NCBI RefSeq assembly: GCF_026723765.1
Contig: NZ_CP113524.1
Location: 62,001 to 126,000 of the forward strand
DNA: 64,000 bases
Reading direction: 5' to 3'
Origin: Lacrimispora xylanolytica
Lineage (GTDB): Bacteria > Bacillota > Clostridia > Lachnospirales > Lachnospiraceae
The translations under genes were made by a program, and so were the position numbers. Each line of letters opens with the position of its first letter. Within the stretch, counting starts at the first letter, position 1. Under the pieces are notes generated by a model. It did no database searches. It saw nothing but the letters and a program-made list of their open reading frames with translations, and was not told the origin of the DNA. Shown here in pieces: positions 25,851 to 45,135 of the stretch.

Positions 25851-25973
25851 ATGAGTCTATTGTTTGCTTTAATCGCAGCCTTAACCAGTTATACAATAGC
25901 ATTAAAATATGGGTTTGGCTTAGGTCTGTTAGCATTTTCTATTTGTTTTTTTATATTTAAAATCAATAATTAA
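25851..25973 (+). CDS. Small hydrophobic peptide (40 aa)
   Basis: MSLLFALIAALTSYTIALKY followed by a second hydrophobic stretch ending KINN: two membrane segments in 40 aa. AAAGGG and a better GGAGG lie 3 and 14 bases before the ATG, so initiation is not ideal. It ends in a 3-base overlap with the convergent membrane gene. Could be a type I toxin-like or phage accessory peptide; coding status is uncertain. Confidence 0.4.
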   Translation: MSLLFALIAALTSYTIALKYGFGLGLLAFSICFFIFKINN

Positions 25974-26596
25974 AAGTTCTTTTCAAAAATCTTAAATAAG
26001 CCAAGGAAGCAAACACTTCCTAAAAGAGTAAAAATTATTTGAGTTGTTTCATTTACTGAGTTGTAAAAAAGTTTTCCTAATGCAATTAGAATTGCGAGGA
26101 TAAAAAGCGCTGCAAAAAGCGTGATAGCAAATATTATGGTTTTTATTATTAAGTAAAACACAAAGAAAAACTTGCTTTTGTATTGATTCCTGTTTAATCG
26201 GTATTCTAGAGTGCGTGTTTTTAATTGTAGTTTGCGACAGGATTTATCAAATGCTTTGTCTATGTATGAGCAAAGTGAGTTGAAGTTTTCAGTATTAGGG
26301 TTTACCTTACAGTAATAGTGCACACTTAGTAAATTTCCATCTGCTAGACTTTTGTTTGTTTCTATTATATCTAATGCTTTTGAGAGTATTTCTGGATCAG
26401 GATTTTGATAAAGAATAGGTTCAAGTATGTCAAAAAGTGGAAATATTAGTTTTTCATGACGCTCTTTTGTAAAAGAGATAGAGGTTTCAGATCTGAAAAT
26501 GTAAATAGAAACAACAACGGTAGCCAATATACCTATAAAATTCAGTGGGTCAAAGTTTGCTTGAGGATTGTTAATAAACTGCCCTATTAATTCCAT
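25970..26596 (-). CDS. Membrane protein of unknown function (accessory gene)
   Basis: A 208-aa AT-rich gene on the strand opposite to the early genes. One helix near residues 20-35 (IGILATVVVSIYIF) and two near the C-terminus (IIKTIIFAITLFAALFILAI, IIFTLLGSVCFLGLF), with a charged cytosolic domain between them. AAGGAGA precedes the ATG. Reverse orientation, base composition and a place beside the repressor suggest an independently expressed lysogenic gene, such as superinfection exclusion; that is inference. Family not recognised. Confidence 0.75.
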   Translation of the reverse strand: MELIGQFINNPQANFDPLNFIGILATVVVSIYIFRSETSISFTKERHEKLIFPLFDILEPILYQNPDPEILSKALDIIETNKSLADGNLLSVHYYCKVNPNTENFNSLCSYIDKAFDKSCRKLQLKTRTLEYRLNRNQYKSKFFFVFYLIIKTIIFAITLFAALFILAILIALGKLFYNSVNETTQIIFTLLGSVCFLGLFKIFEKNF

Positions 26597-35715: not shown

Positions 35716-36084
35716 ATGACGGAAACAGGAATAAATGAGTATCGGTCTTTGCTTGGAACCTTGAAACGTAATAAAGAAAATATACCCCTCCAGCAGTTAA
35801 AGACCGAATATCAGAAGGGATATGACCAGCTAACACAAAGAATACAGTCCATGACCAGGGAAGTCATTCTGGATGTGATTATTGAGGGATTACGGATTGA
35901 ACGTCCCCAGGCTGATAAGTGGTACATGGAGATTAATTCAGCAACCAGGGAATCCGGATATATGAAAAAGGCAAGTCAAGCAGCTTTCCTCCAGCAGGAT
36001 GCTGATCTGGTTCTTGAATATGCCAATAAGCTGCGGGAGATTGTTCATAGCACTGTGAAAGGGTGTGAAAAAAATGCCGGCTAA
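35716..36084 (+). CDS. Phage hypothetical protein (122 aa)
   Basis: Helical, soluble: MTETGINEYRSLLGTLKRNK onward, with GGAGGAATT before the ATG. It is the first gene after the repeat array and overlaps the next gene by 11 bases. I recognise no domain. Confidence 0.75.
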   Translation: MTETGINEYRSLLGTLKRNKENIPLQQLKTEYQKGYDQLTQRIQSMTREVILDVIIEGLRIERPQADKWYMEINSATRESGYMKKASQAAFLQQDADLVLEYANKLREIVHSTVKGCEKNAG

Positions 36085-36238
36085 GAGAAAGACTAATGCT
36101 CTTCCTCCACAGAAAATCTACATCTGCTATATCTGCGGAAAAGAGATTCACGGAGATTGTGAGCACATAACAACTAGGAGGCGTACCGAGTTGCACATAC
36201 ATTTTGAGTGTGTGCCGGGAAAGGGGAATAAATCATGA
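36074..36238 (+). CDS. Small zinc-finger-like protein (54 aa)
   Basis: MPAKRKTNALPPQKIYICYI start; Cys-X2-Cys at CYIC, then a basic segment (ITTRRRTELHIHFECV) with His and Cys residues that could complete a zinc site. AAAGGGTG precedes the ATG and the stop overlaps the next start (ATGA). Probably a small nucleic acid-binding phage protein. Confidence 0.75.
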   Translation: MPAKRKTNALPPQKIYICYICGKEIHGDCEHITTRRRTELHIHFECVPGKGNKS

Positions 36239-36804
36239 AAATAAGAGTATCAATGCCAGAAGCAAGTGTTGCTATTGATTTTGAAGAAGGAAAGGCCCTG
36301 GAGGTATTTGGCAAACTGAATGAAGTCCTTCTTGCTATGAAGAAAAAGGGAAAGGTTTCTGTGCCGGAAGAAATTATCATTCCGATTAAGGCGGTAGTAA
36401 AGCCAGAAGTGAAAATTCCACCAAAACAAAATTATGAAGTCATACAAAAGCCCGTAGCCAATCCGATGCCGGATTCGGTGATTGCAGAACTGGATGCGAA
36501 AATTCCATCTTTGGACACTCCAAAATACAAAGGATTTATGTACATAAAATGTCCTGTGTGCGGAAAAGAAAAAGGACTTTGTATGAAAAAAGAAGCGGAT
36601 CACTACCACTGTGACAGCTGCGGAAAGAGATCCGAATTTGAAAAACCATTAGTCCCTTTGTTTGTAAATTGTGAATGCGGTAGGAGATTTAAGTATCTTA
36701 CTAACATGATGGAATCCTTGTTTGACATCAATTGCCTGGACTGCGGAGCTCCTGTAGCTGTGAAATGGAATGAAGACAAGCAGATTTATGAGACTATCAG
36801 GTAG
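36235..36804 (+). CDS. Zinc-ribbon phage protein (189 aa)
   Basis: N-terminal 75 residues of unknown fold, then two or three zinc ribbons: KCPVCGKEKGLC with YHCDSCGKRSEFE, and NCECGRRFKYL with NCLDCGAPVAVKW. Likely binds nucleic acid or acts as a protein-protein module in replication or late gene control. Coupled to the previous gene by ATGA. Confidence 0.8.
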   Translation: MKIRVSMPEASVAIDFEEGKALEVFGKLNEVLLAMKKKGKVSVPEEIIIPIKAVVKPEVKIPPKQNYEVIQKPVANPMPDSVIAELDAKIPSLDTPKYKGFMYIKCPVCGKEKGLCMKKEADHYHCDSCGKRSEFEKPLVPLFVNCECGRRFKYLTNMMESLFDINCLDCGAPVAVKWNEDKQIYETIR

Positions 36805-36817
36805 AAAGGAGTTTCAG

Positions 36818-37222
36818 ATGGCAGATCAGAATGAGATAGAAAAAATCGTCACCTCCATGAGGGAAGATATATGCGATCACTTATGCCGGTTTCCTAAGGA
36901 GGTTCCCGATCAGGACGCGCTGGAAGAGATATGTGCAGAGTGTCAGATGGGAAAATATGTGTGCTTGATATTAAATACATATAACGCAGCGTGTAAGCTT
37001 CAGGTCGCGGCAGAAACGGTAAGAAATGAACTCGTGGAAAAAGGCGACTGGTACGATGCGCTGGTCGAATCCATCTATGGTTATCTGCGTAGTACTGATG
37101 GTTCAGTGCCATGGCATCAGATGGCTTTAGAACTGGCGGATCAGATTGTGGGAATCGAACCATATCCCGGCCAGGGCGCAAAACAATCTTCCGAGGCTGG
37201 AGACGTTGTGGATGAATTTTGA
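36818..37222 (+). CDS. Phage hypothetical protein with CXXC-type cysteines (134 aa)
   Basis: MADQNEIEKIVTSMREDICD, with Cys residues at ICDHLC and ICAEC that could bind metal, and a helical C-terminal half. AAAGGAG lies before the ATG at 36818; an earlier ATG at 36770 overlaps the previous gene. Function unknown. Confidence 0.75.
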   Translation: MADQNEIEKIVTSMREDICDHLCRFPKEVPDQDALEEICAECQMGKYVCLILNTYNAACKLQVAAETVRNELVEKGDWYDALVESIYGYLRSTDGSVPWHQMALELADQIVGIEPYPGQGAKQSSEAGDVVDEF

Positions 37223-37235
37223 ACTACATTGAAGG

Positions 37236-37784
37236 TCATTCAATATTTCTTGAGTTTATCATAGCAGCATATTCTGTCTCTACTTTTACAAATTGTTGAA
37301 GTAGGGCGAATTTAAAACCTTCTAAAAAAGCAAGATTAACCAAATGTCCTTTAGGAGTCTCAACCTTTTCATAAAAATATCTAAGATCTATAAATGAGTT
37401 TGCTATGATATTAAGTTCTTTATCAAAATCAACAGAATCAAGTGATTTACATTCCTTTAGAAAATGGGTCTCAGTATTTTGTTGAATATTTTTTATACAT
37501 TCAGGGCTTAACACTGAATTTAATGATTGATACAAATTAAGCAAATTATGTTCATTATCAATTTCAACGTCTTTCATTGCTAACATTGATTTTAAACAAA
37601 GCTCGCATGTAAAAGCACTTAAAACAATAGAGGGAAGTATGTAAGTGATTTTTTGATTTTTTTTACTATCTTCCTGGAGACTAATTTTTTGAAGTTCAAT
37701 TGAAGCATTATTCATACCATGAATTTCGGTAAACATTGCTTTTAATTGTAACGGTGTTAATTTCTTTGTTTTCTTCTTTGACAT
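37236..37784 (-). CDS. HEPN-like protein on the reverse strand
   Basis: 182 aa, all helical. PSIVLSAFTCELCLKSMLAM, HNLLNLYQSLNS and NSFIDLRYFYEK resemble HEPN-type four-helix domains seen in defence and toxin proteins. A clear R-X4-6-H catalytic motif is not visible, so it may be non-nucleolytic. It is AT-rich, opposite in strand to all neighbours, and preceded by AGGAGG; the pattern is that of an accessory gene inserted in the lytic region. Confidence 0.75.
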   Translation of the reverse strand: MSKKKTKKLTPLQLKAMFTEIHGMNNASIELQKISLQEDSKKNQKITYILPSIVLSAFTCELCLKSMLAMKDVEIDNEHNLLNLYQSLNSVLSPECIKNIQQNTETHFLKECKSLDSVDFDKELNIIANSFIDLRYFYEKVETPKGHLVNLAFLEGFKFALLQQFVKVETEYAAMINSRNIE

Positions 37785-37895
37785 AGAACACCTCCTGCTT
37801 TTATACGATAAGAGTTTTATATATTGTATTACTAATCTAAATAATAAACAAGAGAGAACGTTTGAACATAACTATTTAACAAGAGAGGCGATAAA

Positions 37896-38096
37896 TTGAG
37901 AAAATCATCAAAAGACTGCAGAGCAGATAGAGCCAGCGTGAAAAGTCGTATACAGGCCGAAGTGGTTGCAGCTATAAAGGCCCCGCCGGTTATGAGCTTC
38001 AGTGCACGGATGCCAGCTTATACATATACAAGCCTTTGTCCGGACCGGAGCCTCAGGAAGCCTCCTGTGAGGAAGAAGGTGGAGAATGAAACTTAA
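37896..38096 (+). CDS. Possible small basic protein (66 aa)
   Basis: TTG start with GAGAGGCG, sequence rich in Arg, Ser and Pro (SFSARMPAYTYTSLCPDRSL). It overlaps the next gene by 11 bases. No recognisable family and composition is unusual, so coding status is doubtful. Confidence 0.4.
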   Translation: MRKSSKDCRADRASVKSRIQAEVVAAIKAPPVMSFSARMPAYTYTSLCPDRSLRKPPVRKKVENET

Positions 38097-38511
38097 ATAT
38101 CTCTACGAAATGTACGATAACGGAGTAAAACAGGGAGAGCGCACCTCCTTGGAATGGGAAGAATTGCTGTCAATCCCCAGACAGGCTATAAGAGATTATG
38201 CCCGTGAAGGTAGGTCGTACAAGCACCGGTATACTTTTAAGGCTGTACGGGAGGAGAACCTGGAGGATAAAACTCAGCAGGAGGAAACCGAAATTACGGT
38301 ACAGGACCTAAGGGAGTTTAGGCGGTCTTTGAAGATAGGATCCAAATTCGAGTATGAGGATTCCTGTAAGGTTATAGTCGTGAGAAAGTACCGTAATATT
38401 GTTGAGTTGGTCAGCTTAAAAGATCCGAAGAGATCAGTCACAATGACGTATATGGAACTTCTGAAACAGCAAAAAAATAAAGTGAAAAGATATATTGACA
38501 GCAGGGGGTGA
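38086..38511 (+). CDS. Phage hypothetical protein (141 aa)
   Basis: MKLKYLYEMYDNGVKQGERT, then a charged linker and a C-terminal KIGSKFEYEDSCKVIVVRKY segment of beta character. GGTGGAGA precedes the ATG. It overlaps the late regulator gene in the usual arrangement; phages of this type carry a similar protein at this place. Function unknown. Confidence 0.75.
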   Translation: MKLKYLYEMYDNGVKQGERTSLEWEELLSIPRQAIRDYAREGRSYKHRYTFKAVREENLEDKTQQEETEITVQDLREFRRSLKIGSKFEYEDSCKVIVVRKYRNIVELVSLKDPKRSVTMTYMELLKQQKNKVKRYIDSRG

Positions 38512-38515
38512 GTTT

Positions 38516-38953
38516 TTGGAGCAGGTAAAAAATTTGAATGAAGAGAAGAAGGAGTATCTTAATACGTATAAGAAATCTAGGAACCGCCTAAAATCTCTGG
38601 AGCTTCAGCTTGAGCAGATAAAAATTGATATTGTCCATGTAAGAGCTTCTCAAGGAAACGGAATGCCCAGGGGGAAAGGCGGAATAAATGATATATCAAA
38701 ATACATGGAGCAGATGGCCAACCTTGAGGAACAGATTGACAATATCCGATTGGATATTGTAGATAGGCAGATTAAGATCACCTCCGCTATTAATTTACTT
38801 AGTGATGATGACGAATGCACAATTATGACGGATAAGTACTTAAATTGTAAGACATGGGAAGAGGTTTCCGAGGATAACGGATATTCATGGAGAACTGTAC
38901 ACAGGATCCATGGTCGAGCATTAAAAAAGATAAAATTGGAAAATTTGGCATAG
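38516..38953 (+). CDS. Late transcription regulator (sigma-like, DUF1492/ArpU type)
   Basis: 145 aa: an N-terminal coiled coil, then a sigma-70 region 4-like helix-turn-helix (CKTWEEVSEDNGYSWRTVHRIHGRALKKIK). Proteins of this type stand just before the terminase in many Firmicutes phages and switch on late genes. The TTG start at 38516 follows GGGGGTGAG. A terminator and a cargo block, not the terminase, come next. Confidence 0.85.
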   Translation: MEQVKNLNEEKKEYLNTYKKSRNRLKSLELQLEQIKIDIVHVRASQGNGMPRGKGGINDISKYMEQMANLEEQIDNIRLDIVDRQIKITSAINLLSDDDECTIMTDKYLNCKTWEEVSEDNGYSWRTVHRIHGRALKKIKLENLA

Positions 38954-38994
38954 TATGGCACATTCATCCTGTGTTATAGTGTAAACAAGAAATT

Positions 38995-39023
38995 GGGCTT
39001 CCTAAAGGGAGGCCCCCTTTTTT
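38995..39023 (+). terminator. Terminator after the late regulator
   Basis: GGGCTTCC (38995-39002) pairs with GGAGGCCC (39008-39015), then CCTTTTTT. Separates the regulator from the cargo block. Confidence 0.8.
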
Positions 39024-39129
39024 ATCCTCATTAACTAATTGTAATATTTTTATGTTAAAATATTGTTTTGATATTTTATTTAAGTAAGTATTGTGTTACA
39101 ATTATTCGCTAAGGGAGCGTGTGGCATGT

Positions 39130-39612
39130 ATGAGGAAGAAAAAAAATAAAGAAGTTTTAGATGAAAAAAAAGGCGAAAAAGATATAAAAGATGAAATTAA
39201 ACTTGATAATATAAAGCAAATTCATAGTGCAGTACTTCAGTTTTCTAGTAATACTATGGAAATTAAAAAATTATTTATAAGTGTACTAATAGCGTATTTT
39301 ACTATCATGGCGGGAATGATTACTAAAATATCCATATCTACTAATTTGGCAATTAAAATATTAGCCACCATTGTTGTACTGTTTTGGATATTAGATGCAC
39401 AATCATATTATTACCAAAAAAAATTAAGACGTTTAATTACTAAATTGCAAAATGAATTAATAGAAAAAGCGGATGTTACTGAAAATACTGGAAGTAGCAT
39501 GAAAACTCTACAGCGTCTAAAAGTCTTTGCGGGACATATTTTGAAGAGCATGTTTAATATGTCGATGTTCATATACTACCTTATCATAGCTGCGTTAATA
39601 ATTGTGGGGTGA
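39130..39612 (+). CDS. Three-helix membrane protein, partner of the TIR-like protein
   Basis: About 160 aa. A Lys/Glu-rich N-terminus, two helices (LFISVLIAYFTIMAGMI and ILATIVVLFWILDA), a charged segment (YYYQKKLRRLITKLQNELIE) and a C-terminal helix (MFIYYLIIAALIIVG). The WILDAQSYYYQ motif is like those in small membrane proteins of bacterial defence loci. ATG at 39130 and GTG at 39121 are both possible. It is followed 4 bases later by the TIR-like gene, so the two form an operon. AT-rich relative to phage genes. Confidence 0.75.
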   Translation: MRKKKNKEVLDEKKGEKDIKDEIKLDNIKQIHSAVLQFSSNTMEIKKLFISVLIAYFTIMAGMITKISISTNLAIKILATIVVLFWILDAQSYYYQKKLRRLITKLQNELIEKADVTENTGSSMKTLQRLKVFAGHILKSMFNMSMFIYYLIIAALIIVG

Positions 39613-39616
39613 CCTA

Positions 39617-39928
39617 ATGAAGATATTTGTTTCATATACAACAAAAGACAAAAACATAACCAGCGATTTTTTAATGCAAGTTTATAATATGCTAAAAAAA
39701 TTCGGGGAAGTTTATATCGATTCTTTAAGCAATAATTCCATAAATATTCAAAAGGACATTTTTGATAATTTGTATAATTGTGATGTAGTGCTAGTATTAC
39801 TGCCAGATAGTAAACTTACATCTAAATGGGTGATGTCGGAAATTAGTTTAGCTAAATTATTAAATAAAAGGATAATGCAAATATATAGTTCTCAAATATT
39901 ATCATTTGATCTTCGTAATTTATTTTAG
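39617..39928 (+). CDS. Short TIR-like domain protein
   Basis: 103 aa. MKIFVSYTTKDKNITSDFLM and the later CDVVLVLLPDSKLTSKWVMS match the start and middle of TIR domains; a Glu (SEISLA) follows Trp as in catalytic TIRs. It is shorter than usual (about 130 aa), ending after IYSSQILSFDLRNLF. TIR domains in bacteria degrade NAD or make signal nucleotides on phage sensing. Ribosome site GGGGTGA overlaps the stop of the membrane partner. Confidence 0.75.
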   Translation: MKIFVSYTTKDKNITSDFLMQVYNMLKKFGEVYIDSLSNNSINIQKDIFDNLYNCDVVLVLLPDSKLTSKWVMSEISLAKLLNKRIMQIYSSQILSFDLRNLF

Positions 39929-39955
39929 GGGACACTGGAGTGTCTCTTTTCTTTT
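39929..39955 (+). terminator. Terminator after the TIR-like gene
   Basis: GGGACAC and GTGTCTC form a 7-bp stem with TGGA loop, then TCTTTTCTTTT. The following 30 bases are similar to those after 40867 (37 of 45 positions by eye), forming a repeated intergenic module. Confidence 0.75.
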
Positions 39956-39999
39956 GGTGAATTTTGGTGTATGATGGAAGAAAAAGCAGGGGGAGGCTT

Positions 40000-40833
40000 A
40001 TGTCTGATATAGAGTTATTAAAAGAAAAGTACATAAAAAGTGTATTGCTTGAAGAAGATCCTGATCTCGATCTTTTAAAGAAAATTAAACCTAAAAGTCT
40101 ATTTGTCTATAAGAGTGGTCAAGATTATCACTTAAGATCTCTGAAAGCCAGTAGAGAGTGGATGTGTGATCCTGGTAAATTTAATGATCCTTTTGATTGC
40201 TGTATCGATATAGATATAAAACATATATTTGATATGGGATTGAAGCACGATCAGCATTTGCAAGAGATTTATGAAAAAAATTCAGATAATGAAAATGCGT
40301 TAAATAATTTTATTCTTAAAAATCAAGAAGCATTATCAAGAAAATTCGAGTCAATTAAACACAGTTTATATATAACATGCTTTAGCACCAGCAATCAATC
40401 AATTCCTATGTGGAGTTATTACGCTAACAAACACGAAGGGTTTTGTGTGGAATATGATTTTGAAGAAGTTTTTGCTATGTATGGCGATTGCTTATTCCCC
40501 GTAATGTATAAAGAACGATATGATGCAGCGTTATCAATGGTTAAAAATGAAGAAAACATAGAAGACAATTGGTTGTTATCTTTTGCCACAAAATCAAAAC
40601 AATGGGAGCATGAAAACGAATGGAGAATAATGAAAGTAAAAAAATCCGCGCCATTGTTTGATAAAACAGAAGATGGCGGAGCTTTGGCAATGCCGTTTCC
40701 GACAGCTGTTCATTTGGGGTGTAGAATCAAGGCGGAATTTGAAAGGGATGTTATAAAAAATATACCTTTTAATAAAACTAAAATATCCAGAGGGTCAGCG
40801 GATAAAACTGAATACAAATTAATGTTCTCGTAA
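40000..40833 (+). CDS. DUF2971 family protein
   Basis: 277 aa. KPKSLFVYKSGQDYHLRSLK, PGKFNDPFDCC, ITCFSTSNQSIPMWSYYAN and GFCVEYDF are the ordered motifs of DUF2971, a family found in phages and in defence islands with no proven activity. The ATG at 40000 follows GGGGGAGG. It has its own terminators on both sides, so it is a separate transcription unit in the cargo block. Confidence 0.82.
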   Translation: MSDIELLKEKYIKSVLLEEDPDLDLLKKIKPKSLFVYKSGQDYHLRSLKASREWMCDPGKFNDPFDCCIDIDIKHIFDMGLKHDQHLQEIYEKNSDNENALNNFILKNQEALSRKFESIKHSLYITCFSTSNQSIPMWSYYANKHEGFCVEYDFEEVFAMYGDCLFPVMYKERYDAALSMVKNEENIEDNWLLSFATKSKQWEHENEWRIMKVKKSAPLFDKTEDGGALAMPFPTAVHLGCRIKAEFERDVIKNIPFNKTKISRGSADKTEYKLMFS

Positions 40834-40847
40834 AGTTGTTAGTCACA

Positions 40848-40877
40848 GAGACGGCCAACCCCGTCTCTTTTCTTTTG
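40848..40877 (+). terminator. Terminator after the DUF2971 gene
   Basis: GAGACGG (40848-40854) pairs with CCGTCTC (40861-40867), followed by TTTTCTTTT. The tail GTCTCTTTTCTTTTGG is identical to that after the TIR-like gene. Confidence 0.8.
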
Positions 40878-40923
40878 GCAATTTTTGATGTATTATTGAA
40901 GAAAAGATAAAGAGAGAATGTAA

Positions 40924-41625
40924 ATGAAAAAGTGGATCAAAGAAAATAAAAAAGGTATTATTATTTTTGGAATTTCAATAATAATTTTATTCCCAATCAT
41001 CATTTATTTTTTATCAACACTTCCGATTTTCCCTGCTGGAGGAAATAATGATTGGGCTGGCTTCTGGGGAGGATATCTTGGTGCAATTATAGGAGGTATT
41101 ATCACTCTTTATGTTTTATTTGTTACTCTAAATGATAATAAGAAAATACAATTAAGAAATGAGAAAATAGAGTTTCTTAATAACTTAGTAGATATGACAG
41201 CCGAGTACATATGTTTTGCAGGAGATTTTATTCAAAATACAATAATGTATATGGAGAGTAACGATACAGACATTCAAAAAACAGAGAATTATCAAAAAGA
41301 ATTAATGGTATCTCAATCAGATTTTAGAAGAATAGGAGTAAAAATAGTAATTCACTTAGAGTTATGCAAGGAAAAAAAATATAAAAGTGTAGACTTATTA
41401 TTGAATTATATTAAAGAAACTAATAGTTTAGTTTATAATACATATTATGTGATTATAAATAATCCAACCGATTTGTCCTATGAAACTTTATTAGAGGACA
41501 ATGGAAAAGTTGCAAGTGCAGTAAATATCGATAAAGTAAGACAAAATCTAAATAAGTTAAATTTAAGTTTGTCCGAATTTGAAGACAAGATAAAAGAATT
41601 CATATTCCAAAATCTTGATGATTAG
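40924..41625 (+). CDS. Two-helix membrane protein with coiled coil
   Basis: 233 aa. Helices near 11-32 (IIIFGISIIILFPIIIYF) and 46-68 (FWGGYLGAIIGGIITLYVLF), then a cytosolic helical domain (KNIQLRNEKIEFL, LNKLNLSLSEFEDK). The NDWAGFWGGYLGAIIGG motif recurs in phage and island membrane proteins of Firmicutes. AT-rich, self-contained cargo gene. Function unknown; a sensor or effector in defence is possible. Confidence 0.78.
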   Translation: MKKWIKENKKGIIIFGISIIILFPIIIYFLSTLPIFPAGGNNDWAGFWGGYLGAIIGGIITLYVLFVTLNDNKKIQLRNEKIEFLNNLVDMTAEYICFAGDFIQNTIMYMESNDTDIQKTENYQKELMVSQSDFRRIGVKIVIHLELCKEKKYKSVDLLLNYIKETNSLVYNTYYVIINNPTDLSYETLLEDNGKVASAVNIDKVRQNLNKLNLSLSEFEDKIKEFIFQNLDD

Positions 41626-41649
41626 CAGGGCAAAGAAGTTTGTTTATTC

Positions 41650-41677
41650 AGACGTACCCCAGTGTCTCTTTTTTGTT
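41650..41677 (+). terminator. Terminator before the terminase genes
   Basis: AGACGT pairs with GTGTCT around a CCCC-containing loop, followed by CTTTTTT. Shares the GTGTCTCTTTT tail with the other cargo terminators. Confidence 0.55.
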
Positions 41678-41714
41678 ATAAAAATTAGCCAGATTGGAAG
41701 GTGAGGTGAGACTG

Positions 41715-42239
41715 ATGGCATTAACAGCCAAACAGAAAATATTTGCAGATGAATACCTGATTGATCTTAATGCTACCAGAGCTTACAAGGTGGCATATCC
41801 CAAGGTTAAGAAAGATGAAACTGCTAAATCAGCGGCAAGTAGGATGTTAACCAATGTTAACGTTGCGTCTTATGTTGAAAAGCGCATGAAAGACCGAGAA
41901 AAGCGTACTGAGATCACTCAGGACATGGTTTTAAAGGAACTTGCAAAAATCGGCTTTGCGGATGTCACTGATTTTGTGACGATTGAAAACAAAGGGACCT
42001 ATAAAGCGGTACAGGTCAAAGCTACAGAAGAAATGCCGGGGGATAAGCTTGGAGCCATTGCTGGGATCAAGGAAGGTGCGAACGGAATTGAAATCAAGCT
42101 GAACGATAAAGGGAAAGCCCTGGAGCTGATCGGGCGGCACTTGGGTATGTTCAAGGAAAAGGTGGATGTAAATATCCAGACTTCCGAAAAGCTGGATGAT
42201 ATCATGTCCCAGATGGGTGGTGAGGGCCTTGAAGAGTAG
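41715..42239 (+). CDS. terS: Terminase small subunit
   Basis: 174 aa. MALTAKQKIFADEYLIDLNA, TRAYKVAYP and the helix-turn-helix region match Terminase_2 small subunits, which recognise the packaging site. The ATG at 41715 follows GAGGTGAG; an in-frame ATG at 41694 lies before this. It overlaps the large subunit by about 11 bases. Confidence 0.93.
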   Translation: MALTAKQKIFADEYLIDLNATRAYKVAYPKVKKDETAKSAASRMLTNVNVASYVEKRMKDREKRTEITQDMVLKELAKIGFADVTDFVTIENKGTYKAVQVKATEEMPGDKLGAIAGIKEGANGIEIKLNDKGKALELIGRHLGMFKEKVDVNIQTSEKLDDIMSQMGGEGLEE

Positions 42240-43617
42240 TAGCTTCCCTTTGTCCCAGAAATACCTTGATTTCATAAACACAGTAAATGGAGTTGATGCA
42301 GACTTCCTGGAGGGAACAACTGCTAGCGGTAAAACAACAGTTGGTGCCGGTGTTAAGTTCATGCGTATGGTCAGCCGGAGCAGTAAGAAGCTGCACATTA
42401 TTGCATCAAAGACAACCGGTACCGCAGAAAAGAATGTGATACAGCAGGATAATGGGATTTTGGATATTCACCCAGGGGCAAGATATTATGGGAACGGTGA
42501 CAAGGATTATAAGATTCCTCATATCGTATTTGAGGGAAAGATCATATTTGTATTGGGATATGATAATCGGGATAAATGGGAGCTGGTCCTGGGTTCCCAG
42601 TTTGGCTGTGTTTACATAGACGAGATCAACACGGCTAATATTGATTTTGTCAGAGAGATTTCAACCAGAAACGATTATCTCATGGCAACGCTTAATCCGG
42701 ACGATCCAAACCTCCCTATTTACAAAGAATTTATTAACCGCTCCCGGCCGTATAAAAAGTACGCTGCCGATGTGCCAGCGGAGATCATGGCAGAACTTAC
42801 AGAAACGCCAGTACCTAAGTGGAGGTACTGGTTTTTTACGTTTAGGGATAACCTTTCTCTAACAAAAGAAGCCATTGAGAAAAAGATCCGATCAGCTCCA
42901 CCAGGAACGAAGCTATACAAAAATAAGATACAGGGGCTACGTGGTAAAGCAACCGGCCTGATTTTCAGTAACTTTGACCGCAAGAAGCATGTGGTCACAA
43001 AGGAGCACGCAAAGCAATTTATACGGAATCAGAATGACCGCCATCAGACAGAATGGTTTGTACACTTTTCAGCAGGACTTGATACGTCTTATTCCCAGAA
43101 GTCACCGGATACCATATCCATGAGCTTTATCGGTATCACGAACCGGGGCAACTGCTATGTGCTTGATGAAAAAGTATACAACAATGCAGATATGGGAACG
43201 CCTCTGGCCCCAACAGATACGGTCCGTAACTTTATTGACTTCCTCGATCGCAACCGGAGTGAGTGGGGCTTTGCCAGAGATACCTTTATTGATTCTGCTG
43301 ACCAGGCAACTATAACAGAGTTCTTAAAGTATAAGCGCTTGAACGGTTGTGTTTACAATTTCAATGATGCCTGGAAGAAAGAACAGATCATTGACCGTAT
43401 CATCAATCAGTTAAACTGGTTTGCCGACGCAGGAACAAAGCCTTGCTTCTATATCGTGGAGACATGCGTTAATTACATTCGGGAGCTTGAGGTCTATAGC
43501 TGGTTGGAAGACAAGGACAACACACCAGAGGACAAGAATGATCACATGATAAACAGCGTGCAGTACTCATGGCTGCCATACGAAGTGAAAATTGGAACAG
43601 GAAGGAGGGGTTCGTAA
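42229..43617 (+). CDS. terL: Terminase large subunit
   Basis: A packaging motor of 462 aa. ATPase P-loop GTTASGKTT near residue 30 and the Walker B-like CVYIDEIN near 135, then a nuclease domain with Asp residues in GLDTSYSQKSPDT and FIDSADQA. The TTG at 42229 follows GGTGGTGAGG; upstream in-frame starts add an atypical segment that overlaps terS. The usual family length supports this. Confidence 0.93.
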   Translation: MKSSSFPLSQKYLDFINTVNGVDADFLEGTTASGKTTVGAGVKFMRMVSRSSKKLHIIASKTTGTAEKNVIQQDNGILDIHPGARYYGNGDKDYKIPHIVFEGKIIFVLGYDNRDKWELVLGSQFGCVYIDEINTANIDFVREISTRNDYLMATLNPDDPNLPIYKEFINRSRPYKKYAADVPAEIMAELTETPVPKWRYWFFTFRDNLSLTKEAIEKKIRSAPPGTKLYKNKIQGLRGKATGLIFSNFDRKKHVVTKEHAKQFIRNQNDRHQTEWFVHFSAGLDTSYSQKSPDTISMSFIGITNRGNCYVLDEKVYNNADMGTPLAPTDTVRNFIDFLDRNRSEWGFARDTFIDSADQATITEFLKYKRLNGCVYNFNDAWKKEQIIDRIINQLNWFADAGTKPCFYIVETCVNYIRELEVYSWLEDKDNTPEDKNDHMINSVQYSWLPYEVKIGTGRRGS

Positions 43618-45135
43618 ATGGGTTGGTTTAAGGATATGTATTTTAAATTGCTTAAGATTGTACATGCAAAAGAGAGACAGGTGGTTATAAAGGAACCGCT
43701 TTCCTTTCAAGGAAATGTCTTGAAAAATAAGATCTGGTACCGAGGAGATCCGTCAGAGTTAGAACAGTTCTTTAAACAGACTGCATACTGTGATGTATTC
43801 AAAGCAAGGTTCTGGGCTTCCGTTCCATACCGGAAAGTAAGGAAAATCCATTCCGGTATTGTGGGAATTGTAGTGGACCGCTTCAAAGATATTATAACGG
43901 CAGATCTAAACGATATCAGCTTTGGAGAAAAAGGAGATAATCAACCTTTAAAGCAGTTATGGGATGAAATTGCTGAGGATAACAACTTCGACGGCCTCCT
44001 GGGCGAAGCGGTGGCCGGTGCTCTATCAGCTGGAGATGGTGCTTTTAAAATAAGCCTAGATACAGTTAGCAATTATCCAATCATAGAGTTTTATGAGGCA
44101 GATCATGTGGAGTACAAATATCAGCGGGGCAGATTAATTGAGATTATCTTTTCCACTGTGTACCCTTACCCAAATAATGAGACAAAGGAATACCGCCTGG
44201 AAGAAACCTATGGAAAGGGTTATGTGACTTACAAGCTGTTTGATGATGGAGGAGAGGAAGTCAAGCTTAATACCCTTCCAGAAACAGCAATCTATGAAGA
44301 TACTGCTTTTGATGGTGATTATATTATGGGGGTGCCCCTTATCTTCTTTACATCAAGCAAGTGGAAGGGACGAGGCAAGGCGTTATTTGAGGGAAAGACG
44401 GACGATCTGGACGCTTTAGACGAAGTAATCAGCCAGTGGCTTGATGCCGTTAGGAAAGGAAGGGTGAACCGGTATATCCCGGAAGATATGGTTCCCAGGG
44501 ATCCAAACACAGGGCAGCTCATTGAGCCGAATGAGTTTGATAACGATTACATAGCCATTGGAGCAGTAAAGAAAGAGGGCTACAGTGATAAGATTGAGGT
44601 AGTCCAACCTCAGATATCCTACGAGGCGTACCTAAACAGTTATACCTCCTTTCTGGATCTGGCCCTGCAGGGAATCATTTCCCCGGCCACTCTTGGTATT
44701 GATCTGAAAAAGACCGATAATGCCGATAGCCAAAGGGAAAAGGAGAAGATTACCACACATACTAGGGGGACACTGGTTAAGGTGCTGGGTAAAGTTCTTC
44801 CAGAACTGGTAAGTAAGGTTATGATGACTTATGACCAGATGCAAGAAAAAACACCTGGAGAGTATAAAGTTTCCGTCAAGTTTGGAGAGTATGCAGCCCC
44901 AGGATTTGATGCTGTAGTGGAGACGGTAAGCAAGGCACGGACTAGCGGTGTCATGAGCATAGAAAAGTCCATAGATGAAATGTATGGAGATACCTTGTCG
45001 AAGAGTGAAAAAGCAGAGGAAGTTAAGCGGATAAAGATTGAGCAAGGTATTTTAGAATCAGAGGAGCCAGAAGTTGCTGGCTATGATGGAATGGAGGGCG
45101 CAATAAATGAGCCGGAAACAGGAGTCGCCCAGTGA
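43618..45135 (+). CDS. Portal protein (SPP1-like)
   Basis: 505 aa. The order N-terminal arm, GIVGIVVDRFKDIITADLND, long DDLDALDEVISQWLDAVRKG stem helices and GIISPATLGIDLKKTDNADSQ is that of SPP1-type portals. It forms the dodecameric ring for DNA entry at one capsid vertex. Starts directly after the terminase and overlaps the minor head gene by 29 bases. Confidence 0.93.
   Translation: MGWFKDMYFKLLKIVHAKERQVVIKEPLSFQGNVLKNKIWYRGDPSELEQFFKQTAYCDVFKARFWASVPYRKVRKIHSGIVGIVVDRFKDIITADLNDISFGEKGDNQPLKQLWDEIAEDNNFDGLLGEAVAGALSAGDGAFKISLDTVSNYPIIEFYEADHVEYKYQRGRLIEIIFSTVYPYPNNETKEYRLEETYGKGYVTYKLFDDGGEEVKLNTLPETAIYEDTAFDGDYIMGVPLIFFTSSKWKGRGKALFEGKTDDLDALDEVISQWLDAVRKGRVNRYIPEDMVPRDPNTGQLIEPNEFDNDYIAIGAVKKEGYSDKIEVVQPQISYEAYLNSYTSFLDLALQGIISPATLGIDLKKTDNADSQREKEKITTHTRGTLVKVLGKVLPELVSKVMMTYDQMQEKTPGEYKVSVKFGEYAAPGFDAVVETVSKARTSGVMSIEKSIDEMYGDTLSKSEKAEEVKRIKIEQGILESEEPEVAGYDGMEGAINEPETGVAQ

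Follow-up and report, generated by a model that had tools for sequence, protein, structure and literature searches.

Lacrimispora xylanolytica carries a prophage in which a block of four AT-rich genes lies between a late transcription regulator and the gene for the terminase small subunit (terS). In this study, we analyzed a window of 64,000 nucleotides (contig NZ_CP113524.1, positions 62,001 to 126,000, assembly GCF_026723765.1) from a 4.5-Mb single-contig genome; positions below are those of the window. The block consists of three cassettes, namely a pair of genes for a membrane protein and a TIR-like protein (genes A and B), a DUF2971 gene (gene C), and a gene for a protein with two hydrophobic stretches (gene D). 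As judged from sequence, the first cassette is a pair related to the catalogued defense candidate PDC-M50 and the second is a PDC-S31/DUF2971 gene. The same site is occupied by other accessory genes in related prophages, and this slot, with its varied, mostly low-GC cargo and shared joints, is the more novel part of the finding. We propose that the cassettes are morons set between a late-promoter leader and terS and expressed in the lysogen, and that the pair has a putative activity in which TIR action on nicotinamide adenine dinucleotide (NAD) and a membrane step would end support for another phage. We regard this proposal as about evenly balanced between right and wrong.

The cargo block and its borders

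The prophage spans at least the stretch from the integrase (22751) and repressor (24760) to the endolysin (61325). The four genes occupy 39130-41625. GC content is 0.299 in the interval and 0.440 in the 1.5 kb after it. The gene to the left (38495..38953, +) encodes an ArpU/DUF1492-like late transcription regulator, which matched phrog_36 at 5.8e-21; its matches to DUF1492 (1.3e-3) and sigma-70 region 4 (5e-3) were both under the Pfam cut-off. To the right, terS (41715..42239, +; phrog_51, 1.7e-45) opens a terS/terL/portal order. This is the setting that an earlier note on this DNA had described. The note had also held that the flanking genes are normally adjacent, and one empty case bears this out: viral contigs L136 and L139 carry a same-type regulator, and only 104 bp separate it from the terS that follows, which belongs to another type. 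The two contigs are identical over 400 nt at the site and count as one case, in which the regulator and terS were named by eye and position. With this case, the block shows the mark of a moron, that is, extra genes between genes that are adjacent in relatives.

A late-promoter-like stretch is followed by a hairpin that forms the left edge of the cargo. The former (38945..38985, +), found by direct reading, has two GGCA repeats 10 bp apart followed by TATAGT, and its TGTGTTATA is invariant across six aligned leaders of the window's type, two of which are the same sequence. The leader hairpin (38984..39023, +; -17.6 kcal/mol, z -2.5) carries a T-run and lies directly 3' of the late promoter; the corresponding hairpin of the empty site directly precedes terS. 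Five phage contigs have this leader type, and the two empty ones (identical here) consist of regulator, late promoter, hairpin, and terS. The right edge is the terS joint (41664..41709, +), composed of a T-run, TGTTATAAAAATTAGCC, and a ribosome-binding region. BLAST matches to the joint at 87-100% identity were obtained in 16 of the 40 genus regions fetched (at least 97% in nine), and the joint is retained next to differing cargo and differing terS. In many prophages it is constant from the T-run on, and the stem ahead of it varies.

The pair of genes A and B

Gene A (39130..39612, +) encodes a 160-aa membrane protein with FWILDAQSYYYQ and three hydrophobic stretches, in agreement with the three helices assigned to it earlier. 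It matched two PADLOC PDC-M50A models at 2.5e-6 and 5.8e-6, which is weak for published models, and its own family profile (15 rows, gene A itself among them) at 1.8e-32. In alignment A1, K46, F85, D89, R100, and Y150 are invariant. Weak Pfam matches to pestivirus NS2 and Vpu, under the curated cut-off, were dismissed as chance.

Gene B (39617..39928, +) starts four bases past the gene A stop (39612) on the same strand, and encodes the short TIR-like protein that the earlier note had seen there. The 103-aa product keeps Trp71 and Glu75 and lacks the last beta-strand and helix. It matched Pfam TIR_2 (9.5e-8) and ThsB_TIR (2.1e-5); a match to PDC-M50B (5.1e-4) covered 56 residues, at model positions 48-103 of 162, and other TIR models scored higher. 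Glu75, which we take to be catalytic as in TIR enzymes, does not vary in either TIR alignment (10 and 9 rows); Trp71 is invariant in the second one. The AlphaFold2 model, built from nine sequences, has a beta-alpha-beta-alpha-beta-alpha-beta order, ends after strand 4, and reached a predicted local distance difference test (pLDDT) score of 80.8. Its six Foldseek matches at E ≤0.001 were five nucleoside 2'-deoxyribosyltransferase (NDT) chains and one BcThsB; further matches, up to about 2e-2 and with template modeling scores of about 0.6, were to ThsB, SARM1, and plant TIRs. The NDT and TIR folds are relatives; therefore, the TIR reading of gene B rests on sequence as well as on fold.

The wider family of gene A could be reached only by profiles. 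The M50A models and profile searches found A-family genes in one of 25 genus genomes (the own genome), 9 of 299 family genomes (own genome and one doubtful included), 6 of 295 order genomes (own genome included), 9 of 398 phylum genomes, and 10 viral contigs. For the neighborhood count, six window-locus copies, L118 (same as L006), and L125 (a 429-aa frame resembling a sensor kinase) were dropped. The 31 distinct relatives that remained include L094-L099 as well as L123 and L124, both weak. Nineteen of them have a TIR gene no more than 100 nt away (10/21 genome loci and 9/10 viral loci), on the other strand in one of the nine viral cases. The TIR profile for this count was built from gene B and neighbors picked by eye; 10 of the 19 loci (L004, L005, L006, L007, L093, L120, L122, L129, L134, and L135) were tested with PADLOC ThsB models, which confirmed the TIR in each. 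A TIR match in L099 was dropped for overlapping the A-type gene. Among loci lacking an A-family gene, the TIR profile was found in one place only, L040 (also seen as L019). ThsA adjoins the pair in L005 (1.1e-194) and L122 (1.6e-113), and in L004 TIR genes flank the A-family gene on both sides.

Homology (PDC-M50A/B), these neighborhoods, and the TIR/NDT-type fold support the earlier proposal of a defense-type pair of a TIR and a membrane protein. The companion statement that its type could not be named did not hold, as PADLOC-DB already lists this kind as PDC-M50; the pair appears to be a divergent form of that candidate. As to the same pair occurring elsewhere, relatives of gene A do stand beside TIR genes, but no other of the 25 genus genomes has an A-family gene.

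As a separate observation, the six relatives L094-L099 have no accepted TIR neighbor, and several adjoin DUF499- or methyltransferase-like genes by eye.

Genes C and D and the predicted transcription signals of the cassettes

Gene C (40000..40833, +) matched DUF2971 at 4.1e-8, as the earlier note had it, and phrog_1762 at 6.7e-36. The note had missed that it is also a listed candidate: residues 30-276 match PDC-S31 at 2.5e-45, nearly full-length, over model positions 5-255 of 259. In the literature searched, DUF2971 was mentioned by one paper, on the reannotation of a genome. Gene D (40924..41625, +) encodes a 233-aa protein whose N-terminal part holds two hydrophobic stretches, which fits the two-helix membrane protein proposed before. 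Its only match was to phrog_16113 (1.9e-6), and the 25 genus genomes hold two weaker relatives besides itself.

Promoter-like elements precede all three cassettes. Upstream of the pair, an extended -10 promoter-like sequence, TGTGTTACAAT (39092..39102, +), was found by direct reading against the general extended -10 consensus. Genes C and D are each preceded by a copy of another promoter-like element (PE), which does not occur upstream of the pair. Copy 1 (39951..39984, +; weight-matrix score 52.1) lies next to a terminator, and copy 2 (40872..40905, +; score 42.2) is 86% identical to it over 43 nt.

Good terminators end two of the three cassettes. One hairpin (39927..39948, +; -10.6 kcal/mol, z -1.95) overlaps the stop of gene B, and another, AGAGACGG..CCGTCTCT (40847..40868, +; -13.1 kcal/mol, z -3.0), follows gene C; stems near-identical to the latter were found at the terS joint of other prophages. 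The hairpin after gene D, before the terS joint (41650..41667, +), reaches -2.8 kcal/mol (z -0.17). Hence the claim that each unit ends with its own terminator stands for genes B and C, and less clearly for gene D, where the hairpin is weak. A terminator scan of 38900-41800 gave 4 sites, against 0.7 ± 0.8 in shuffles, and a search of 36000-44000 against Rfam gave no match up to E 0.5. Expression of the cargo in the lysogen is plausible from these putative signals.

A shared slot in Lacrimispora prophages

A DNA search matched 20 of the 25 genus genomes. Short intergenic stretches of the window recur in them, mostly at 80-100% identity, and the cargo does not. From the 40 regions fetched, the 22 with an interval recognized by eye were counted (18 were unused); together with the window, they gave 23 regulator-to-terS intervals in 17 Lacrimispora genomes. 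The interval of L051 holds only a doubtful small gene, and L050 and L054 are incomplete at the edge. Interval length ranges from 591 to 3562 bp (median 1964), and the median GC content rises from 0.34 in the interval to 0.45 in the 1.5 kb that follow; the interval is lower in 22/23.

The 50 cargo proteins from outside the window were compared with known families at E 1e-5. Matches included TIR-TM (1), PDC-M11A (1) and PDC-M11B (1), both carried by the L042 interval, D12 or type II methylase (2), HicA (2), HicB (2), DUF4062 (1), NACHT (1), and DUF3825 (2), as well as choline-binding repeats (2), tail collar (2), and other families; Pfam gave nothing at this threshold for at least 30 of the 50. 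Some cargo is common to more than one interval. In another genome, a single gene for a 321-aa TIR-TM protein fills the same slot (L040:3207-4172; PADLOC, 4.6e-72).

The earlier note had missed that cassettes 2 and 3 have an element in common and that other Lacrimispora prophages carry it at this site. In all, 27 copies of CTTTTGGTAAATTTTGGTGTATRATGGAAGAAAA were counted in the window and the oriented regions, all of them in one direction. In 16 of them PE begins 1-3 nt past a terminator stem. In 17, those of genes C and D included, the distance from the end of TATRAT to the next gene start is 23-39 nt, with gene borders called by a simple in-house caller. As a 34-nt conserved element, PE has 18 copies inside the intervals (46 kb) and 0 in the 166 kb outside them in the same regions. 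These regions were selected by DNA match to the window, joints included, so that the frequency of PE is possibly overstated; these copies also served to train the weight matrix, and under leave-one-out, PE is counted in 13 of the 23 intervals. At whole-genome scale, allowing up to 3 mismatches, the 25-nt core had 24 matches in 16 of the 25 genomes, against 2 for the reversed control. Ten of the 24 lie outside the mapped intervals; L089 adjoins terS/terL-like genes, and some are near ordinary chromosomal genes (by eye). PE is therefore a promoter-like element of the genus, and not of the slot alone. The slot itself is recognizable by the 34-nt element together with the conserved terS joint, and it brings many small unknown genes next to recognizable defense genes.

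Terminators and late transcription

Terminator-like hairpins were sought between regulator and terS in 28 intervals, i.e., the 23 above and five viral contigs; L137 repeats L068 and L139 repeats L136, which leaves 26 distinct. All 28 contain at least one such hairpin, called permissively (at least 6 pairs, -6 kcal/mol, sites inside genes counted; 5 window sites, versus 3 in a stricter scan). In 19 of the 28, a hairpin lies within 75 nt of terS. The window is not among these; there, 607 nt separate terS from the closest site that passes, so that putative gene D transcripts may enter terS.

The presence of a terminator-like hairpin in every interval examined suggests late read-through. In such a model, the late RNA would start upstream of the cargo, carry the leader hairpin, resist termination in a put- or Q-like manner, and read through the cassette terminators to terS, and lysogen transcripts from PE would stop at them. 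We consider this course of events doubtful, and antitermination is offered as a model, not as a result. If it were true, a gene arriving with its own terminator could be added without harm to the late operon, which would explain the defense cargo and give a simple rule for cargo gain in temperate phages. An extended -10 sequence in the terS joint, TGTTATAAA, could also serve as a promoter of terS, in which case read-through would not be needed; several joints lack it or have only a poor version. In L040, only about 14 nt separate the terminator tail from the ribosome-binding site.

A second leader hairpin was observed in other prophages of the genus; the leader of the window is of the other type. 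This 12-bp hairpin, CGGTTGCCGGGT-GTAACA-GCCCGGTGACTG, occurs in 17 regions (L035:4332-4382 and 16 other genus loci), often just 3' of the late promoter and ahead of a terminator, and in several regions only after one or more cargo genes. It is conserved among phages with different regulators. In the alignment, 98.3% of cells pair and three pairs are changed on both sides. The covariation score was higher than in any slid control and than in 498 of 500 shuffles. The counts of double-change pairs (67/500 shuffles as high) and of further pair types (474/500) were not outstanding. The L035 leader had only matches far below the gathering score in Rfam.

Other genes of the prophage

Three further places in the prophage were noted. 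Just ahead of the start of the late region, a 182-aa gene on the opposite strand (37236-37784, -) had a sub-threshold HEPN match (0.018). At the corresponding place, L040 and L064 carry membrane proteins whose N terminus is gene D-like by eye; they were not among the matches of the search with gene D. A second cargo slot may exist around 37236-37784. Next to it, a stretch of about 210 nt (37885-38097) is 80-89% identical in many genus prophages and probably encodes a short conserved protein of about 66 aa; the next gene shows only about 50% protein identity in several of them. Beside the repressor, a 208-aa gene (25970-26596, -) lies in a low-GC stretch and has a hydrophobic N-terminal region by eye. 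It gave no match in PHROGs and looks like a further moron.

Proposed role of the cassettes and its alternatives

In the lysogen, each cassette would be run from its own promoter, i.e., the extended -10 for the pair and PE for genes C and D. Terminators after genes B and C, and less clearly after gene D, would limit the cassette transcripts. Infection by another phage would activate the TIR protein and thereby cause NAD turnover or formation of an NAD-derived signal. The membrane protein may hold the TIR protein at the membrane, or it may act as the effector by opening the membrane. The infected cell would then stop supporting the phage.

Several observations weigh against this reading. Twelve of the 31 relatives of gene A have no TIR gene within 100 nt. 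Searches of the 25 genus genomes and 150 family genomes returned no close relative of gene A, and those of phage records and viral contigs none of gene A or B; the whole-genome search for gene B covered the own genome. Identity to aligned relatives is low for both proteins (14-22% for gene A and 17-29% for gene B). Foldseek, suggested earlier for both, returned the TIR/NDT-type fold for gene B only; the predicted model of gene A is poor (pLDDT 68) and matched no solved structure in the PDB. The hairpin after gene D is weak, so full insulation of the late genes is unsupported. Finally, gene B is shorter than every aligned partner TIR, with 28 residues after Glu75 against 52-173 in 17 aligned partner TIRs, and the terminator stem that follows includes its stop codon, two features that the earlier note had missed. 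Gene B is possibly truncated, and without its C-terminal part this copy may be weakened or dead.

The alternative that survives best builds on this last point. A longer TIR gene may have been cut at its 3' end when the terminator, PE, and DUF2971 cassette recombined in, which would have left gene B as a remnant and the pair no longer working. Besides the position of the stop codon and the short tail after Glu75, the model that ends after strand 4 and the lack of any relative of equal length among those found fit this course of events. Against it, the frame is open and starts four bases past the gene A stop, the Trp71/Glu75 segment and strands A-D are retained and modeled at pLDDT 81, the protein may do without the edge strand, and no close relative exists in our searches against which relaxed selection could be judged. 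We take the remnant to be a serious possibility, although we lean against it. Gene B may thus be a minimal TIR or a cut one.

Expression in the lysogen, as we prefer it, may also be questioned from the layout of the block. The four genes and both PE copies have the orientation of the late genes and follow the late-promoter-like stretch, PE has two TTTTGG repeats and no TTGACA box, as an activator-dependent promoter might, and the weak hairpin leaves gene D joined to terS. The cargo could then be expressed late and serve the lytic cycle, by host takeover or late exclusion of rival phages, rather than lysogen defense. A hairpin terminator stands between the late promoter and the cargo, however, and good ones follow genes B and C. 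PE also occurs outside the site, e.g., near EF-Tu in L060 and a transposase in L066 (by eye), and is thus not tied to phage late control. On balance, a lytic role seems unlikely to us. That the pair is a membrane-anchored TIR regulator pair or a toxin-antitoxin-like module that stabilizes the prophage is improbable, since its relatives lie in Thoeris loci beside ThsA and are catalogued as defense candidates, although small, closely spaced two-gene units are also typical of addiction modules and L029 and L068 have HicA-/HicB-type pairs at this site (by sequence).

Comparison with known systems

The closest known system is PDC-M50. The window pair shares with it a three-helix protein with an FW-LD-YY-R motif beside a TIR gene, the A-then-B order seen in L007, L093, L100, and L126-L128, and two adjacent, co-directional genes, here with a four-base gap. 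It differs in its weak scores and its 14-29% identity to relatives, in two residues inserted in the LD-YY motif of gene A, and in a TIR that is short by the last strand and helix. Gene C differs in nothing we could see from PDC-S31. The PDC candidates originate from an embedding analysis (Payne et al., 2024, preprint, as cited in PMC12988326) and, according to PMC12988326, remain largely unvalidated; the names PDC-M50 and PDC-S31 do not appear in it. No functional test of PDC-M50 was found among the papers listed in the literature search.

With type I Thoeris (ThsA SIR2-SLOG and ThsB TIR), the pair shares the predicted fold of gene B, which matches BcThsB and ThsB-Tad3 entries, and the two loci in which A-family genes stand beside ThsA and ThsB. 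Gene B also appears to supply the TIR protein with a conserved Glu that is expected of Thoeris. In contrast to type I, no ThsA lies next to the window pair. In type II Thoeris, a macro-domain ThsA disrupts the membrane and the TIR makes His-ADPR, as summarized in a review (PMC12948488). The window pair likewise joins a TIR to a membrane partner, but a macro domain or other signal-binding domain was not detected in gene A. A full Thoeris system was rejected: the block has no ThsA, and all that the own genome gave was a partial SIR2 match, with macro-domain ThsA not sought genome-wide. That match lies at 3277588-3278040 (L147), in an 854-aa frame with a SIR2-type stretch (2.9e-12; ThsA model positions 77-224 of 478), possibly another defense gene. 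As to Thoeris type III, gene B matched NCBIfam ThcB4 in its TIR part only (5.6e-9, 35.3 bits) and did not reach the curated cut-off of 220 bits.

A database candidate that joins a TIR to a membrane protein is now placed in a phage, with a second listed candidate next to it. What it does can be asked directly, because relatives of the membrane half adjoin ThsA and ThsB in Thoeris loci. Phage morons and prophage defense hotspots consist of accessory genes that sit at a set position of the late region, with a promoter and terminator of their own, and the cassettes of the window, as judged from their predicted signals, resemble them in this. The slot described here differs in that one promoter-like element, set against a terminator, is common to unrelated cargo across the genus.

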